From the NCBI GenBank assembly GCA_947034885.2, contig OX344750.2:40720821-40784820 (forward strand): DNA of 64,000 bases, read 5' to 3'. Both the position numbers and the translations under genes were made by a program. The notes under the pieces are model-generated. The model saw nothing but the letters and a program-made list of their open reading frames with translations. It searched no databases and was not told the origin of the DNA. Origin of the DNA: Thuidium tamariscinum (lineage: Eukaryota; Streptophyta; Bryopsida; Hypnales; Thuidiaceae). Position 1 is the first letter of the stretch. Every line of letters starts with the position of its first letter. Positions 11,725 to 57,470 of the stretch are shown here, piece after piece.

Positions 11725-12590
11725 GGTTCAGGGTTTGCACGTTCAGCATCATTCTGCTGAGTGCAACCTAGCTGCTGAATTTCGGATTTGAAGATCTCCC
11801 TAGACGATAATAAAGTATTAAGTAAAGGATATAAGTTATATAACATTACCAAGATTTTATTCATTGATAGATACCACATACTTAGGCTCATAATACAAAG
11901 ACATCTTTTTGGAAGTCAAATATGAGTTTACAATGCTAATTTAAGCGGGAATTTAAGTTCCAAAACCGTAACGTTGGACCATTTAGACTGAACTGGCAAT
12001 AGAACTAGTCTTGTTCAGACTAACAGTAGGGTCCATATAATGAACTTGATCATGCCATCATGGCATGAATCCACGGTAAGAAAATTAGGAAGTTCCAGAA
12101 GCAAGGACCTGGCTGCCTTTGCATTGGTCAACAATTCACAGCCGCCCTCGAGCTTGAAAGTTCTAGATATGATGGATCCAAATAAGGCTTCATTTTGCAG
12201 TCTCAGAAAAAAATTGACTTTATCAGGACGCCACGGATCCATGAAACCTCTAAAAGTTTTTTTTTTTTTTTTTTAAACAACTGAAACGGAATTTCATTGT
12301 AAAGGTTAGAATACAAAAAGAACAGCTCCACATGTGGAAACCTCTGAAAGTTTGGTTCTCCACTTATGGTATGAGGAGCTTGTTTGCAATATTTCAATTT
12401 CAAACTCTGGCAGAGACAGAAGATTGTGTTTGACATTGAAGGCATCAATTGCAACTTTTGCAAGCTAGAATTCAAGCTAGCAGCCTGTACACATAATTAC
12501 AAACTTGCACCAGTGACTCAGTTTTCTGTTTAATTCGAGTGCATGTGTGCATGGGGCTTGCATAGTAGGACAGGATAGAATGAGCTCTTC
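11725..12590. other. Intergenic sequence between two pseudogenes
   Basis: No gene recognised. A T tract of about 18 lies at 12,257-12,274. The open frames here (75-90 codons) have no domain resemblance. Confidence 0.45.
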
Positions 12591-12594
12591 TACT

Positions 12595-15510
12595 TCCTCG
12601 TATTTGTGTTGCTTCGGTCAGTTGCCGGTGACGGCACACGACTCGTCTTCCATTCCTTTCCCACTGAAGATGATAGCATCATAACCCTCGGAGATGTTGC
12701 ATACAATGGCGCCAATCAATCTTACGTCTTCAACAGGCGTGCCACGCACTTGCGAGGATCTTGTGGAGTGTTGTTCTATGGGAAGAAGATACACATTCAG
12801 GATGTCGCAACTGGGAGAGTTGCTTCGTTCACCACCTCATTCTCATTCACCTTCAAAACTCTCGAGGTACCTCGGCATAAAAGCAGTTCTCCGAGAGACA
12901 ATGACCACAGCGGAATCCTCTTCGCATTATTGAAGAGCTTGAGCATGCGTGCTCATCTGCAAGATCTCATATCGGATTCAGGAAGCGCTGGTGCATGCAA
13001 GAGTCCTCTCCATCCAAGTCATTCACACCACAGATACACTGAGTCAAGCTTCCTGATCAGTTTCAACGACATGGGGAAGTACCATACTAATTTTCAAGAC
13101 GCTGGCAATAGCAACATCAGGGTGGGAAAAAATCGTGATTACGAATATGACATCAAAGCGGGTGATTGCAAGAAACACTTGTCTTATTTTGTGTCACATG
13201 TTGCATTCTAATTTATGTTTTGGCCATAACTTTTGTGTTTTAGCTCCGATTAACTTAAGATTTGTAGGGAAGGTACTCATAACTATCATAAACCTTTCAT
13301 AATTTTTTTTATAATTTTCAAAAATAATTTACTATTAAAAAATAGACCCCAATTGGATGTCACACTTGGCAGTTTAGGGGTTTTTAGTACCTAAACTATA
13401 CCTATTTTTAATGATTTTAATATGAAATTTGAAAGAGATGGTCTTCTAGTAGACTCCTAGCTCTCGAGGAAAGGATTTTTTAAGAAAGTTAATTTTGTGA
13501 GGTGGGGAGGTCTACAAAGTGAGCTTCCTTCTGCTTGTATTTTGAAATATATAAAATATTATTTTGATGGGTTTTTTTGTGACTGAACATCTCCATAAAG
13601 TTGTTGCAAATGGACACTTTTTATTTTTTGAAAATATTTATTTTTACTATTTTTCCCTAATTAAAACATGAAAGTATGTATTTTCTGGAGGTTTGGCTCT
13701 TTTCAAGTTCTCCTACTTAAAGAAATTTTCTATCCATTTTCTTCAGTGAAAACCTTCATCTTAGAGGTATATACACTATTCATATTTTTCAAATTTTTTT
13801 AAAATTAATTTTCTAATTTTAAAGTATTCCCCAAAAAATCAGCCAAACGCAACAAATAGGACAGGTGTTTCTTGCAATCACCCACACTCATAGCCTCTGT
13901 GGCAGCGATACCTACTGCTCATATTTTTGCGATGGGAAATCTTCACTGCTTGGATTGATTTCAAGAGCTCAGCTCGGACACTTGAAGTGTGGCTTGCGAA
14001 TGGATCCAAACCCAGCGTGAAGAAGCCCCTGCAACCTCAGCTACTCATTCCCGACTACAAATTCCCCGAAATACTTAGCGATGAAGTGATCCCTGTCTTT
14101 GGGGGAGGCTCCGATGTCCAACGTGTCGAAGCGCATGAGCTCTTGTCGTGGGAATTCTTCAGTAGTGAGGTTTCAAATGTCCCTTCCTCCCAAACCCCAA
14201 ATCATTTTTGGAAGAACAAAACATGGGGTGGGGTGAACATAGGAGTTCTAGGGTTGGTTGTAGCAGCTGCAGTCATCATTCTCTGGTGCGCCTCCCGCCT
14301 TGTGAGCCCATCCAAAAGATATCGCTACAAGCCACTAGGCCATAGCACAGGTCCACATGCATTCTCGTATGCAGAGCTCCGGATGGCCACTAACAACTTC
14401 CATGAAAGAAATTTGCTTGGTATCGGTGGATCGGGGTCTGTCTACAAAGGCTCCTTTGAAGCTCCTGGTGGAACCCATTTTGTGGCCGTGAAGCAAATCA
14501 AGTTCGTGGAGTCCAAGCAGGCGGAGTCCCTCTTTCATGCGGAAGTGGCTAGTCTTGGCCAAATTCGGCACCACAATGGAGTTCAGTTGCAAGGCTAGTG
14601 TCAAGAAAAAGGTCGCATTTTAGTTTATGACTTCATGCCCAATGGAGGCCTCAATGAATGGCTTCACATCCAATAGCCATGGTCTCCAACACCAAAAGAT
14701 TGTCCTCTCTTTAGAAAGGCAGTGCTCTATCTTGTAAGGAGTGGGTGCAACTTTGGAATACTTGCACAAGGATTGCTTGAGTTGCGTTTTGCATTGAGAC
14801 ATCAAGTCTAGCAATGTGTTGTTGGATGTGGATTTCAATGCACATTTGAGAGACTTTAGACTTGCTCACATGATGGACCACCACAAGTTGGACGAAACCA
14901 CTTTGGCAACTTGAACTCTTGGCTACATAGCTCCCGAGGTGCCCTACACCGGCAAAGCTACTAAGGAATAAGATGTTTTTAGTTTTGGCACTTGGGTGCT
15001 TGAAGTTGTGTGTGGAAGGCATCCCTTGGATATGCAAACAATGGAACCAGAGGATCTTGTGTTGTTGCACATTGTTTGGCGAGCTCATGAAAGTAGGTCT
15101 CTTTTTGATGTGATAGATCCAACATTGCTTCAAGCTCTTGAACCTTTAAGTTCTATAGTTGATCAAAAAGATGAAGATGCAATAGTATTGCCTCCTTCAC
15201 CTTTAGACTTTAACCTAGGTAGTGACAACAATGTGCTAGGTAGTTCAATAGTCTTGAATGTAGATGTTTAAGTGTATGCAACTATGGTTGTAGATCTCCT
15301 TCGTTTGGGCCTCTTAAGTTGCCTTCTTAATCCAAAGGCTCGACCATCTATAGGACAAGTGAACGGAATATTGCAACAAATAAGTGATATGAAATATGCA
15401 TCGATCATCAACAATATTTTTGATGCCTTTGTTACCAACCACCAAGCCTCGGGGATTTTACAGTTCATTAGAATTCTCTCAAACTTCTCCTATTTTAGGC
15501 TAAAGTAATA
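12595..15510 (+). pseudogene. L-type lectin-domain receptor-like kinase pseudogene
   Basis: An ancestral L-type lectin receptor kinase can be followed across the region. The legume-lectin domain begins near 12,640 (FHSFPTEDDSIITLGDVAYN, then VASFTTSFSFTFKT) and resumes after an insertion with WIDFKSSARTLEVWLANGS. A membrane segment follows (IGVLGLVVAAAVIILWCA, about 14,240-14,290), then a kinase domain with P-loop LGIGGSGSVYKG and VAVKQIK. Inactivating changes are visible: TAG at 14,596-14,598; a frame change after it; TGA in place of the catalytic-loop Arg (14,795-14,797); DFG changed to DFR; TGA at 14,912-14,914; TAA at 14,969-14,971. The kinase tail NPKARPSIGQVNGILQQISD is still readable near 15,330-15,390. 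Such kinases are plasma-membrane receptors in defence signalling; this copy is dead. Confidence 0.92.
13160..13883. mobile_element. 724-bp inverted-repeat insertion in the lectin domain
   Basis: The ends GGGTGATTGCAAGAAACAC (13,160) and its reverse complement (ending 13,883) continue as a roughly 30-bp inverted repeat with few mismatches. The interior is AT-rich and non-coding, unlike the GC-richer pseudogene on both sides, and the lectin similarity stops and restarts at the ends. No clear target duplication was found. Confidence 0.75.
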
Positions 15511-31140: not shown

Positions 31141-31725
31141 AGGGCCAGCTTCCATGCGAGTCGGGCCGGTCGAACTTGCAAGGGAGAGCTACAGTGAGAA
31201 GTGGGTGATGACACTTCTATGTGGGCCTAGTGGGTGGGGAGATATCGGGTAAGAAAAGGACACGTAATGATTCACCTCGTTCACCAATATCAATGAAACT
31301 TGATCTCCGGCTTCTCTGCTCACCAAGGCCGGCAACACAATCGGTGCGAGTTGCTCGTCTTGTAGTACTTTTGCTACCAGCCCGACTCACATGGAAGCTA
31401 GGCCTAACTCCTTTTTTGTCAATGCGGTACACCGAACGTTAAATCCTACCAACGAAGGTGGGCCTTGCCTGGCCGGGGTGAACTGATTCCCTCGCTTGGC
31501 ACCGATATCGGTGAAACTTGAGCTCCTGCTTCTCTGCTCACCGAGGCCGGCAACACAATCGGTGCGAGTTGCTTGTCTTGTAGGACTTTTGCTACCAGCC
31601 CGACTCACATGGAAGCTAGGCCTAACTCCTTTTTTATCAGTGCGGCACGCAGAACGTTAAATCCTACCAACAAAGGTGGGCCCTACCTGGCCGGGGTGAA
31701 CTGATGCCCTCGCTTGGCCACTTGG
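31141..31725. repeat. 228-bp tandem duplication with an inverted edge
   Basis: Two direct copies (about 31,260 and 31,488 onward) share AACACAATCGGTGCGAGTTG and CACATGGAAGCTAGGCC; the landmark spacing is 228 bp. A third partial start follows at about 31,697. The outer left edge (AGCTTCCATGCGAGTCGGGC, 31,149) is the reverse complement of the repeat interior with few changes, giving a foldback layout. GTTAAATCCTACC...GGTGGGCC inside resembles the arm ends of the foldback element at 3,607-4,555. Confidence 0.75.
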
Positions 31726-39584: not shown

Positions 39585-42500
39585 ATGACGGGAGCTAGGG
39601 ACGGGAGATCTGATGGTAGCAAGCAGCAGGGCAGTGGACCTGCTCTGTTTCCTCGGCTGCATGTAGCCGAGACAAAGCGGGCCGGACCACGGGGTCCACC
39701 GCGCAACAAGATGGCTCTGTTCGAGCAACTCACGATTCCGTCTCACAAATTCAAACCGTCTCCCATGGCTTTGCCATCTTCTGGGCGAATTATGAAGAGT
39801 CCGGCCATGACCACACCGATATATCTTCCAATTCCTCAGGTATGTTGCCATTGCTGAAGTTTCGCTATAGGATAGTCTTGTTTTCACGGAAGTTGAGAGA
39901 GAATCTCGGTGCACTGAACCCTCTCAAATGGCGCTCTGTAGTTGCACATTTCTTGTACATGTTGAGATTCTGTAGTGTTCGGTACACATTCAATTGTACG
40001 CTTTTCCGCATGTCAAGTCGTGAATACATGTGGCAGGAGCCCATTTGTCCCGGAGGTAGTGCAATTAGAGAGGGTTCAGTGGACGTGTCCGTTGTCGCAT
40101 AAGGCTGAAAGACGTTGAATTTTGTAAACTGAGTGCGTTGACAGTGTACCATTTTCTTACTTATGATGGAAGTATCGAGCAATTATCGATTCCATGTATT
40201 GTCGTCAATATATAACTTAGTTTGATCTTGGCCAAGTTTATCTTATTTGCATTAGCTCTTAATGTTTTTGCTGCGATGAGCACTGTCCACCTTGTATGTG
40301 TTGATGATCTGTTGAATTATGCTTTGAGGTCTCTCTAGAATTGAACCTGAGTTTTGACCTTACTACTTTTCGTGCGCAGGTGTCTGCTGGATCTCATGAT
40401 AGTATGTACTCGTACGTGCCCATGAACTATATGAATCCTACTATGATGCCAACAATGGCTTGTATACCCAGTTACTCATATTCGGGACTCTTCAGCGCTG
40501 AGGCTACTCATTCGATGAACACCAGCGGTAGTAAAAGTACTATCGTGGATGGAGCTGAAGAATCACCTTCCGTTGGAGGTGCAGTGTCGAAGGCTTTTTG
40601 CCACTCAAAATTTCAAGCTCCCTCCAAGCAGGGAAGAGGGGACGATGACTTCGCAGTGCCCACTTACTCCTCGGCCACGCAATCCAGTGGGCAAACGACG
40701 AGGCCCTCGAGTCCCCTTCATTTCCGTAAAGCACCTCGTGGACAGCGGCCTTCGCCAAGAGACAAGGGTCCTGTACTACAGAAGCGGTCTCCATTAATTC
40801 AGAATAAGTGTATGGAAGTGACTTCATTAGAGCGCAAAGACAATGGTGGCTGGTCTACTGCTAGTGGGGAATGCGTGTCTGTTTGTGTCACTGGTAATGA
40901 GGGGGATTCGCAAGAAAATGGTCACAGTGAATTGGAGAGGGTTCCTTCATCTGAGAGTTACCCAGCATCTGCCCCTACCGATAAATTTTGTAGAGCAGGT
41001 AGCTTGAATGGTCCCTCTGAACAGGACATGAACAGCAATGTCTTTTCGGAAAGTCAAAGTTGGGAGGATTCGGAGCCTTCTCGACAGGGAAGAGGTAGCA
41101 GTCCAGAATCGGGATCTTCCATGCTGGAGAACACGCCCGCTGGTTCTGTTCAATTCCAGGATGTTGTTAATGCGTTCGGCCAGCGAGAATTTTGGAAAAC
41201 CCAAATGATCCTGATCAGGTATCATTTGACTTTTCGAGTCTCTCCAAGTCTCCTTTGTTGCGAACCTCTACATTCTTTTGATGAGTAACTTACTGCTCTA
41301 GAAGTGGGTGAAGATTCCTAGTTTGCTAGCTAGGATCACGTACTCAGTCATTGCTTGCAAGGAAGTACCTACTTCACTGTTTGATTGCTGTTTTACGCTT
41401 GAACTGTCCTTTTAGATTTTTTTGTCAATCATGCTATCGCTTGTCCACTGTTTTTTGTGCTGCACATTCTAGTTACTGAGTATGAATTGACTTTGAGTCG
41501 TACCTGTGGCATGTGCAGACAACAGAGGATTTTTTCTCGACAAGTATTCCAGCTGCACCGTGCCATTGAAGTCCAGCAGCTTCTTGCAAAGGCACTTTGT
41601 TCCTCTACTAGCATTGACGAAGCTCTAGAAAAAGAGGATGATAACGTGCACATGGCCGAAAGCCCTGTAGCTGAAGTCCCTCAAGTCCCTCAAGCTGAAA
41701 GTCCTGTAGCTGAAGTCCCTGAAGATCCTTCAATCGCTGAAGCTCCTCAAGTTCCCGAAGTCGCAGAAAGACACCCAGAAACGAAGGCTTTGAATGAAAA
41801 CTCAAGTGCATATCTGGAACCACCTCATCAACCTGTGTACCCTCTACCCGTACACACGCAACAGGCTTTTAATCGAGAAGCTCCATGGCCGGCACCTCCT
41901 TATGCTCCAAATCCATGGGCAGTTAGAATGGCCTCCTCTTTCATGTATGTACCATACCCAGGACCCTACCCTCCTGGCTATGGGGCCTATCCCATGATGG
42001 GTGCACCGATGCCCATGTATGCTCCCCCTGGAGCTTTACAGCAGCAGCCCGTACGGTTTCCAACTTGGCCGCAGCAGCAGTCAGGTATGCCTCTGGTGAT
42101 GGGTGCTCAAGATCCAACCGCAATGGCAGCATGGTATGGTCAACAGGTTCTGGCAGGTGTTCCAGCAGCTGCAATGGCCCCAAGCGCGAGCATTGCACCT
42201 CCTGCATGCCATCTTGAACGTCTTACACCATCCGGATCTGGCCAATCAGTCGAAAGCACTTCCCACATTGCAGGTGCTCGTCAAGCTGGCGAAGCTGGAG
42301 CTCCCTTCGATGCCCGTCAAGCTGGCCGAGATGGATCCCTTCTTGGTGCTCGTCAAGCCGGCCGAGATGGAACCCTCCTTGGTGCTCGTCAAGCTGACCG
42401 AGATGGAACGCTCCCTGATGCTCGTCAAGCTGGCCGAGATGGAACCCTCCCTGGTGCTCGTCAAGCTGACCGAGATGGAACCCTCCTTGGTGCTCGTCAA

Positions 42501-43229
42501 GCTGACCGAGATGGAACGCTCCCTGATGCTCGTCAAGCTGGCCGAGATGGAACCCTCCTTGGTGCTCGTCAAGCTGACCGAGATGGAACGCTCCCTGATG
42601 CTCGTCAAGCTGGCCGAGATGGAACCCTCCTTGGTGCTCGTCAAGCTGACCGAGATGGAACGCTCCCTGATGCTCGTCAAGCTGACCGAGATGGAACCCT
42701 CCTTGGTGCTCGTCAAGCTGACCGAGATGGAATGCTCCCTTATGCTCGTCAAGCTGACCAAGATGGAGAGAACTCCAACAAGGGGAGCTCTGAGGATACT
42801 CGTGGCTGGGCAAAAGGATGGGGTAGGAAGGAAGGACGGTGGGTACGTGGGGATCGGAGTTTAGTTCACAAGAAAGCAAGTGACATTGCGGATCTTCGAG
42901 GAAGCGAAGCCGATAGCGAAAACGGTGACACTGCTCGGGAAGGAGGTGATCCTAGTTATGGAGGTTTACAGCCAACGAGCGACTGCCACCCTATCGTTGA
43001 GCCTCAGGCCAACGTTGAGGGACGTCAGGAAGGGATGGCCTCGTTGAAACACATGCGTTCAGAGGGTGCCTTTGAGCCCGGTGCATGTCGGTGGTTTCCC
43101 ATTCTCTCGCCTTCCAAGAGACCTATGCATCACAATGGAGTGATTAAGGTTGTTCCGCGAGCAGTTTCTGCTACTCCCGAACTCGCAGCCAATATACTTT
43201 TGTCCATCCAAACCGACAGACGGCAGTGA
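39585..43229 (+). CDS. ELF3: EARLY FLOWERING 3 homologue (evening complex scaffold)
   Basis: In Arabidopsis, ELF3 is a nuclear scaffold that joins ELF4 and LUX in the evening complex, which represses clock, growth and flowering genes at night. Predicted exons are 39,585-39,839, 40,380-41,218 and 41,519-43,229, joined at GT-AG introns in phases 0 and 2 and giving 934 residues. Conserved blocks are present in order. Block I is at residues 20-55 (LFPRLHV, GPRGPPRNKMALFEQLTIPS). DDDFAVPTY is near residue 173. A block spans the second intron near residues 342-390 (FWKTQ, then QQRIFSRQVFQLHRAIEVQQ). A Pro/Tyr/Met-rich segment lies near residues 507-540. The C-terminal block is GVIKVVP...AANILLSIQTDRR. 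Residues 618-785 are 14 tandem 12-residue repeats. The start ATG (A at -3) is chosen because block I follows closely in frame. The blocks are intact and no inactivating change is seen. An acidic PVAEVP repeat lies near residues 415-440. Confidence 0.95.
39840..40379 (+). other. ELF3 intron 1 (540 nt, phase 0)
   Basis: Donor CAG/GTATGT and acceptor GTGCGCAG/GTG. Removing it joins PIPQ to VSAGSHDS in frame. It is moderately AT-rich. Confidence 0.85.
41219..41518 (+). other. ELF3 intron 2 (300 nt, phase 2)
   Basis: Donor CAG/GTATCA and acceptor ATGTGCAG/ACAACAG. Splicing produces ILIRQQRIFSRQVFQLHR across the junction, matching the conserved ELF3 block; reading through the intron breaks the match. 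Confidence 0.88.
42276..42779 (+). repeat. 36-bp coding minisatellite in ELF3 (14 units)
   Basis: Fourteen contiguous 36-bp units encode a 12-residue repeat with consensus ARQA[G/D]RDGTL[L/P][G/D]. The first unit (ARQAGEAGAPFD) and the last (ARQADQDGENSN) are the most diverged. Units alternate between a G-LLG and a D-LPD form, giving a 72-bp higher-order pattern in the middle. Arg and Asp balance each other, so the segment is strongly charged, Gln-poor and probably disordered. It lies after the aromatic/proline-rich segment and before the C-terminal block. Confidence 0.95.
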
Positions 43230-54839: not shown

Positions 54840-55379
54840 GAGGGATTCAGGGGTGTTTTGCATCTTTTCAACCATCTTCAAATGCTTCTCATCATCTCAT
54901 ATAAGAAGAATTTAAAACCTTTTTTTTTCTCCTCACAACAACCTTCAACTATACATGCATAATGAAGCAAATTGAAAAAAAAATTAATTTCAATGTTTGG
55001 TTGGAGGTAACAAAATCTTTTTGCAAAAACCATGCACGCACCCAAGGGAAAGGTAGATTAAACTAGCTTCAAGACCCTATTCTGATCCAACTAAGATCTT
55101 GCAGGTAGTTCAAGCTACCCCACTTTAATCATCTTTATGAATGAGTAGAATTTTATTCCTTTTATCAAATATAAAGAAGATATTGAAAGATAGTCATTTT
55201 AGTTGAGTCAACTTCAAATGCTACTCATGCCACATAAAGTTGTAGCCCTATATTTTCTCTTCATAACAATATTCAATTTCAAATTATTTATTGTGCAAGT
55301 TGTGAATTATTTTCAATTGACTTATAATCAAAGGTGTATATTTAATCTTCAAACGTATATAAAATAAAAGTAGCAATAA

Positions 55380-56063
55380 GTACTTTTTGAGACTCAGTTG
55401 GATCCGATGGACCTTGGGGTATTCCTTGGTATTACTCCCCATTTAGGTACCCTGTAGTGTACTAGAACGTGTTTTTTGGTCATGGTTTCAAATTTCTTGG
55501 ACAAATTTCTTTCAACTTGTCAAGGGTACCTAAAGTAGGGGTAGTTCCAAGTACCTTTTGAGGCTCAGTCGGATACGAAGGACCTTGGGGTGTTCCTTGG
55601 TGTTACTCCCCATTTAGGGACCCTGTAGTGTATCGGAACATGTTTTGTGGTCATGGTTTCAAATTTCTTGAACAAATTTCTTTCAACTTGTCAAGGGTAC
55701 CTAAAGTAGGGGTAGCTCCAAGTACCTTTTGAGGCTTAGTCGGATCCGAATGACCTTCGGGTGTTCCTTGATGTTACCCTCCATTTAGGTACCATGTAGT
55801 GTACTAGAATGTGTTTTTTGGTCATGGTTTCAAATTTCTTGGACAAATTTCTTTCAACTTTTCAAGGGTACCTGAAGCAGGGGTAGTTCTAAGTACCTTT
55901 TGAGGCCTAGTCGGATCCGAATGACCTTAGGGTGTTCCTTGATGTTACTCCCCATTTAGGTACCCTGTAGTGTACTAGAACGTGTTTTTTGGTCATGGTT
56001 TCAAATTTCTTGGAAAATTTTCTTTAAACTTTTCAAGAGTATCTAAAATAGGGATATATACAA
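55380..56063 (+). repeat. 171-bp tandem repeats, forward array (4 copies)
   Basis: Units start at 55,380, 55,551, 55,722 and 55,893, exactly 171 bp apart. Each contains TCGGATCCGA-like, CCCCATTTAGG, GGTCATGGTTTCAAATTTCT and GGGTACCTAAAGTAGGGG-like landmarks. The copies differ at several positions each. Confidence 0.95.
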
Positions 56064-56068
56064 GTACT

Positions 56069-56930
56069 CTTGACAAGTTGAAGGCAATTTTTTCAAAAAA
56101 TTTGAAACCATGACCACAAAACATGTTCTGGTACACTACAAGGTACCTAAATGAGGAGTAACATCAAGGAACACCCCAAGGTCATTCGGATCCGACTAGG
56201 CCTCAAAAGATACTTGGAGCTACCCCTACTTTAGGTACCCTTGACAAGTTGAAAGAAATTTGTCCAAGAAATTTGAAACCATGACCAAAAAACACATTCT
56301 GGTACACTACAGGGTACCTAAATGGGGAGTAACATCAAGGAACACCCCAAGGTCATTCGGATCCGACTGAGCCTCAAAAGATACTTGGAGCTACCCCTAA
56401 TTTAGGTACCCTTGACAAGTTGAAAGAAATTTGTCCAAGAAATTTGAAACCATGACCAAAAAATACATTCTGGTACACTACAGGGTACCTAAATGGGGAG
56501 TAACATCAAGGAACACCCCAAGGTCATTTGGATCCGACTGAGCCTCAAAAGGTACTTAGAGCTACCCCTACTTTAGGTACCCTTGAAAAGTTGAAAGAAG
56601 TTTGTTCAAGAAATTTGAAACCATGACCAAAAAACACGTTTTGATATACTATAGGGTACCTAAATGGGGAGTAACACCAAGGAACACCCCAAGGTCCTTC
56701 GTATCCAACTGAGCCTCAAAAGGTACTTGGAACTACCCCTATTTTAGGTACCCTTGACAAAATGAAAGCAATTTTTTCGAAAAATTGAAACGATGACCAA
56801 AAAACACATTCTAGACTTCTTATACACTGTAGGCGAGTGCAGGGTACCTAAATATAAGGTAACACCAAGGACTCTTAGAAGTTGAATTGGATCAAATTGA
56901 ACTTCTAAAGGTTCTTAGTACTTTCTATTT
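56069..56930 (-). repeat. 171-bp tandem repeats, reverse array (about 5 copies)
   Basis: The same unit runs in the opposite direction, with landmark CTTGACAAGTTGAAAG or its variants at 56,069, 56,240, 56,411, 56,582 and 56,753, again 171 bp apart. The last unit is more diverged and carries extra bases near 56,815-56,835. Confidence 0.95.
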
Positions 56931-57470
56931 TTTGGATACATTGGAAGGGAAAATTTACACCTCCAATAAGTAGTCAAAATAGAAATATTTCACAATTCAT
57001 TCAACAAATAATTTGGAATTGAACATTGGTATAAAGGGGAAATATAAGGCCACAACTTAATGTGACATAAAAAACATTTGAAGTAGAGTCACTTTAAATG
57101 ACTATCCCTTAAAATCTTCTATATTTTTGGTAATAAGAATGAAATTTTAACTCATTTAGTCATTTATGAAGGCATTTAAAGTTGGAGATATCTTGATCTA
57201 CTCGTAAGACCTTAGTCAAATTGGATTAGGATCTTGGAACTAGTTCAAGCTTCCCCTCCTTCTGGTACATATATGGTTTTTCCAAAAAGCTTTCATTACT
57301 TCCAACCAAACATTGTAATTAAAAAACGTAATGTAAAAATTTGTTCCTTGTACAATTTTTCCTGTATCCATAGTTGAAGATTGTTGTGAGGATAAAAATA
57401 GGGCTTCAATTTCTTCTTACATGAGAAGCATTGAAGTTGAAAGTTCACAAGCAACATGCCTTCAACGTTT

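Follow-up and report, generated by a model that had tools for sequence, protein, structure and literature searches.

A charged coding minisatellite of fourteen units in the last exon of a putative ELF3 gene from the moss Thuidium tamariscinum

For the prion-like domain of the Arabidopsis clock protein ELF3, a construct comprising residues 388-625 has been described (PMC13431640). In the excerpts of the literature on which all citations in this text draw, both length variation of an ELF3 repeat and condensation are demonstrated for the Arabidopsis protein alone. Homologues outside flowering plants are known from Marchantia and Physcomitrella (PMC5638080, PMC9202859, PMC3017809); in these papers ELF3 of M. 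polymorpha bridges LUX and ELF4-like in yeast, and P. patens possesses one ELF4 and three ELF3 (PMC5638080). Here we describe a tandem array of 14 charged 12-residue units in another homologue of this kind, a gene of Thuidium tamariscinum that we take to be ELF3. The gene lies in a stretch of 64,000 nucleotides (C2:40720821-40784820), termed the window, and positions below refer to the window unless a contig is given. The array bears on the question whether ELF3 is tuned by the length of its repeat in general or whether this is a peculiarity of the Arabidopsis poly-glutamine (poly-Q) tract.

The gene model, built from the sequence alone, runs on the + strand and consists of three exons with 934 codons (934 residues) and no internal stop. 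The two introns of 540 and 300 bp are both bordered by GT..AG. The gene and the elements discussed below are arranged as follows.

39585..39839, + strand: exon 1 of ELF3 (residues 1-85), open from the ATG, with a GT donor at 39840
39645-39752, + strand: N-terminal conserved block of ELF3, inside exon 1; 24/36 identity with the Arabidopsis block
40380..41218, + strand: exon 2 of ELF3, with GT..AG borders and an open frame; holds the DDFAVPTY stretch and the beginning of the central helical block
41519..43229, + strand: exon 3 of ELF3 through the stop codon (43227-43229); 569 stop-free sense codons from 41520
41814..42275, + strand: Pro/Tyr/Met-rich, low-charge stretch (residues 464-617) by composition; candidate counterpart of the Arabidopsis prion-like domain
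42276..42779, + strand: coding minisatellite, 14 x 36 bp = 14 x 12 residues (residues 618-785), from Tandem Repeats Finder (TRF), lag identity and the ELF3 frame
42528..42671, + strand: units 8-9 and 10-11 of the array, two identical 72-bp dimers (0 differences for 7/9, 8/10 and 9/11)
43140..43223, + strand: C-terminal conserved block (VIKVVP...) of ELF3; 14/28 identity with the Arabidopsis block, E 1.4e-5; low-confidence predicted helix

The three Arabidopsis query blocks were short, and their letters are the weakest point in taking the gene as ELF3. The best match was obtained for the N-terminal block (FPRLHV...PPRNKMA.EQL.IPS, residues 21-56) with 58.2 bits and an E value of 1.4e-16. The central helical block (residues 352-388; 18 of 37 identical) reached 46.6 bits, and the C-terminal block (residues 906-933) was the weakest of the three with 26.6 bits, compared with a maximum of 22.3 bits among 600 shuffled blocks. 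All three occur in the Arabidopsis order, and those flanking the array are intact, i.e. open and in frame. Hence, the preliminary description of this DNA, which had proposed an ELF3 homologue with undamaged blocks on both sides of the repeat, is supported in both points. AlphaFold2 predicts a helix at the central block (block pLDDT, the predicted local distance difference test, of 65-80) and places the C-terminal helix with low confidence. None of the three ELF3 segments submitted to Pfam matched a family at E<=1; a Pfam model for ELF3 is not known to us. For the exon-3 protein, 21 pattern matches in viral and 593 in prokaryote collections included no relative at E<=1e-3, and solved structures gave two chance matches only (E 1.2 and 2.3). 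For the ELF4 family, one match above the cut-off was found in the genome (C3:40239909-40240148, 97 bits). By family membership, the gene has a putative role in the evening complex together with ELF4 and LUX.

The array occupies 504 bp within exon 3 and consists of exactly 14 units of 36 bp, each in the ELF3 frame. Its self-identity is 0.87 at a lag of 36 and 0.905 at a lag of 72, whereas 2000 base shuffles reached at most 0.355 over lags 30-119. TRF independently reports it at periods 36, 72 and 108. Fourteen contiguous units of the form ARQA[G/D]RDGTL[L/P][G/D] had been described before; number, contiguity and frame are correct, but the consensus is matched exactly by 10/14 units only (units 3-12). 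Two further units come near to it, unit 2 with Ser in place of Thr and unit 13 with Met in place of Thr and a Tyr in the last position, while the edge units are degenerate (unit 1, ARQAGEAGAPFD; unit 14, ARQADQDGENSN). Degenerate edges around near-identical inner units are the usual minisatellite profile. The array thus shows what characterizes a coding minisatellite: a unit of at least 10 bp that is a multiple of three, an open frame and near-identical copies. With the coding tandem repeats in disordered regions of a published census (PMC7230257) it shares the in-frame unit, the near-identical copies, the degenerate edges and the lack of predicted structure; judged by the excerpt of that census, it differs from such repeats only by its location in the clock protein ELF3. 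The array is a real feature, interesting as a natural variant of ELF3 and ordinary as a kind of sequence.

A further + frame and two - frames of the array likewise lack stops, a consequence of a unit length divisible by three. No Rfam family was found at gathering score within the window, and the RNA of the array does not fold better than shuffled sequences (z +1.22; 91/100 shuffles fold equally well or better). There is thus no sign of a function of the array at the RNA level. A second, short repeat in exon 3 at 41658-41733 has a 39-bp unit in 1.9 copies and encodes the peptide AESPVAEVP twice. Consequently, exon 3 underwent at least two separate tandem duplications.

The relationships among the units indicate how the array grew. 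Within units 2-13, neighbours differ on average in 3.73 bases, but units two apart in only 1.9. Several units are identical in DNA sequence (4=7=9=11; 8=10; 6=12), and from the identities 8/10 and 9/11 it follows that the dimers 8-9 and 10-11 agree in all 72 bp. This pattern is best accounted for by duplication of two-unit blocks, and the growth was recent and partly dimer-wise, in steps of 72 bp. The identical units thus bear out the recent duplication implied by the earlier mention of near-identical units; that copy number is still changing is a suggestion drawn from one assembly. The ratio of amino acid-changing to silent differences (pN/pS) among units 2-13 is 0.85 in the ELF3 frame, a rough measure as units copying one another are not independent. 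The coding frame does not stand out by this measure, because the other two + frames give 1.3 and 0.7. The variation is near neutral, with no sign of strong selection, and lends no support to constraint at the peptide level.

In its 168 residues the array contains 26 Arg and 26 Asp, balanced as previously reported, besides 2 Glu and no Lys, corresponding to a charged fraction of 0.32 and a net charge of -0.012. The charges are evenly mixed, since the mixing index of 0.083 compares with 0.184 in shuffles and none of 500 shuffles was as low. Gly is frequent (27 residues) whereas only 7 Pro and 2 aromatic residues are present. The mean hydropathy of 0.381 lies on the disordered side of the boundary at 0.418, and a single-sequence AlphaFold2 prediction of exon 3 leaves the array free of helices and strands (block pLDDT 32-48). 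The supposed scarcity of Gln, however, is not found: Gln makes up 15/168 residues (8.9%; one per unit and two in unit 14) compared with 6.0% outside the array. What is missing is just the poly-Q run, the longest Gln run anywhere in the protein being 3. Gln and Asn together account for 10.1% of the array and for at most 15/80 residues anywhere, and the array is thus neither Gln/Asn-rich nor poly-Q in the manner of the ELF3 prion-like domain.

The array follows the central helix and precedes the C-terminal block, as the prion-like domain does in Arabidopsis. Besides this interval, both share protein family, disorder (predicted for the array) and tandem repetition (PMC13431640, PMC12177298). Unlike the poly-Q tract, the unit here is 12 residues long, charged and nearly aromatic-free. 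Directly 5' of the array, residues 464-617 contain 16 aromatics, 31 Pro and 10 Met in 154 residues with a charged fraction of 0.058. By place and make-up, this stretch is probably a better candidate than the array for the counterpart of the prion-like domain, whose general composition in Arabidopsis it resembles. As this stretch is present and more like the Arabidopsis domain, the array looks added beside it, not substituted for it. The preliminary description, which placed the array in the equivalent general region, was right about the interval. The 119 residues 3' of the array have a charged fraction of 0.30 and a net charge of zero; in this respect the array is thus of the same style as the segment that follows it.

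A synthetic counterpart is the resilin-like (GRGDSPYS)n (PMC10709347), which has a short tandem unit, equal numbers of Arg and Asp, a high Gly content and disorder in common with the array. According to the excerpt of that paper it differs in having 40 or 80 units of 8 residues instead of 14 units of 12, and the array possesses a Tyr in only 1/14 units and few Pro and Ser. An aromatic residue in each Arg/Asp-balanced unit, as in resilin-like repeats with an upper critical solution temperature, is not present in the array, which has 2 aromatics in 168 residues. The string ARQADRDG was found in no paper of the full-text collection searched, and a charged repeat in ELF3 is absent from the titles and abstract starts among the matches listed.

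For the genomic context the 363-Mb assembly of 19 contigs was searched, in which C1 to C11 (17.5 to 54.2 Mb) account for 362.9 of 363.2 Mb. The array peptide has its only match at E<=0.01 at the window locus (16 candidates scored; counts are lower bounds), and a dispersed or mobile repeat is therefore not supported. When exon 3 and exons 1-2 served as queries, a single further copy of ELF3 came up, located on C3 near 27.68 Mb. At this second locus (C3:27679000-27688900, - strand) exons 1-2 match while exon 3 is disrupted. The exon-3 homology contains two in-frame stops, and the C-terminal match is weak (E 5e-4) and in other frames; a third stop in the same reading (5203 of the reversed locus) precedes the inferred start of exon 3. 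Between WYG(E/Q)QV and the C-terminal match the second copy has about 61 codons' worth of DNA, in contrast to about 311 residues (residues 575-887) in the window gene. TRF on the 9.9-kb locus reports only one unrelated 14-bp array, and in the 300 bases examined no unit-like match exceeds the shuffled level (best 20/36, reached by 30/200 shuffles). The DNA alignment of both copies breaks into short gapped pieces, mainly after about 42150, and was not used there. The second copy could be a pseudogene or the source of a shortened ELF3. By these searches no complete ELF3 other than the window gene was found in the genome, and this gene carries the array. Since the second copy has decayed, its array-less state is no proof that the ancestor was array-less.

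As a base rate, arrays of period >=24 with >=4 copies were collected from 20 x 10 kb of the four largest contigs and from the window (264 kb of 363 Mb). Only the ELF3 array combined >=10 copies with an open frame. Other arrays in this sample included one of 30 bp x 4.4, which is open, and one of 61 bp x 10.8, which is not. Because the window had been picked for its array, this sample is a rough yardstick only.

We propose, with a probability of roughly 60%, that the array is a young coding minisatellite in the last ELF3 exon which acts mostly as a soluble, flexible spacer. It would have expanded via slippage or unequal exchange in steps of 36 and 72 bp, growth being tolerated because the unit is stop-free and a multiple of three. 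The product would be a disordered segment of 168 residues, evenly mixed in Arg and Asp and nearly aromatic-free, which presumably separates the aromatic/Pro-rich 'sticky' stretch from the conserved C-terminal block and dilutes the sticky residues. The number of units, if effective at all, would shift self-association mildly and gradedly. We infer from the sequence that the array is translated, disordered in the cell and young relative to other species; its action as a spacer and a graded effect are likewise plausible rather than observed. Several points weigh against this proposal. The single-sequence AlphaFold model with a mean pLDDT of 43 is weak evidence for disorder, and an array may have been deleted from the decayed second copy. 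The even mixing of charges could itself be selected, and Arg could serve as a sticker toward the neighbouring aromatics, which is the opposite of a passive spacer. Furthermore, the location in the only complete ELF3 copy found leaves room for function. As a charged, non-Gln repeat in an ELF3 for which no second complete copy was found, the array offers a clean system for relating unit number to condensation and clock period. If unit number changes nothing, the ELF3 linker is shown to tolerate large insertions.

A more active role of the array, which we regard as rather unlikely, would make it a length-variable tuning element. Arg of the units might pair with Tyr, Trp or Phe of the preceding stretch, or the Arg/Asp repeats might self-associate on cooling, and the number of units would set the condensation temperature of ELF3. 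It is consistent with this that 26 Arg and 26 Asp adjoin a stretch with 16 aromatics and that recent duplication makes copy-number variants plausible. Arg/Asp-balanced resilin-like repeats of the octapeptide GRGDSPYS phase separate on cooling (PMC10709347), and in Arabidopsis the variable ELF3 repeat moves the condensation temperature, Q20 separating at a lower temperature than Q7 or Q0 (PMC12177298). However, poly-Q length in Arabidopsis ELF3 is reportedly uncorrelated with environment (work cited in PMC12177298), Tyr is absent from 13/14 array units, and the unit variation contains no signal of selection at the peptide level. A Tyr-to-Val variant of the resilin-like peptide was not reversible, yet remained insoluble (PMC10709347). 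Therefore, loss of Tyr need not abolish association, and the absence of Tyr cuts both ways. Blocky charge patterns are generally stronger drivers of association than evenly mixed ones, which argues against a driving role of the array with its even mixing. More elaborate and very unlikely is an arrangement of two opposed thermal elements in tandem, in which the aromatic/Pro-rich stretch condenses on warming and the following Arg/Asp repeat favours association on cooling or binds aromatics. Unit number would then set the temperature band for ELF3 condensation, and hence the temperature response of the clock.

At the other extreme, the minisatellite might merely be tolerated in a disordered linker, its length being without any effect. 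Such neutrality would agree with the pN/pS of 0.85, with the single occurrence of the array in the genome and with the second ELF3 copy showing none, but we consider it unlikely. The frame is kept across all 14 units, in the only complete copy found; this argument is weak, since the C-terminal block needs the frame anyway. It is highly improbable that the array is absent from the mature protein, being spliced out as an exonic intron, or that the unit number is an assembly error, although tandem arrays are generally hard to assemble. Four donor-like GTATG sites lie 5' of the array in exon 3 (41945, 42017, 42085 and 42134), the one at 42085 in a good context (CAG before the GTATG). If the criterion is relaxed far enough to admit the two acceptors of the gene itself, one of 12 CAG/TAG sites 3' of the array (43007) passes as an acceptor. 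A stricter criterion leaves none 3' of the array, but it also misses these two acceptors and carries no weight. None of the four donors, when joined to 43007, preserves the frame of the C-terminal block. The T content of the array is 21% compared with 36-39% in the two introns of the gene, and the array, judged by the codon usage of the remaining gene, scores best when read in the ELF3 frame (0.46; next best of the six frames 0.30). Splicing-out of the array is thus unlikely.

The sequence D-x-D-G-T-L in the array unit recalls both EF-hand and HAD-phosphatase motifs. As no Pfam family was found at E<=1 and no structure is predicted, this resemblance is attributed to chance. For the EF-hand, moreover, the first and last ligand positions of the loop are Gln and Arg in the array.

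Outside the ELF3 gene, the window contains an inverted repeat at 55349-56757 with 693-bp arms that are 90% complementary and 23 bp apart. The arms are built from a 171-bp unit in tandem (4.0 and 4.4 copies), and weaker outer arms extend to 54984-57322; a mobile or satellite element may be present here as an inverted array. At 12579-14598 lie fragments of an L-type lectin receptor-like kinase, with two open frames that each match a legume-lectin domain narrowly above the cut-off (E 1.3e-6 and 2.2e-6) and the start of a kinase that scored below its cut-off. At 31282-31718, a 218-bp unit is present in two head-to-tail copies with 92% matches.

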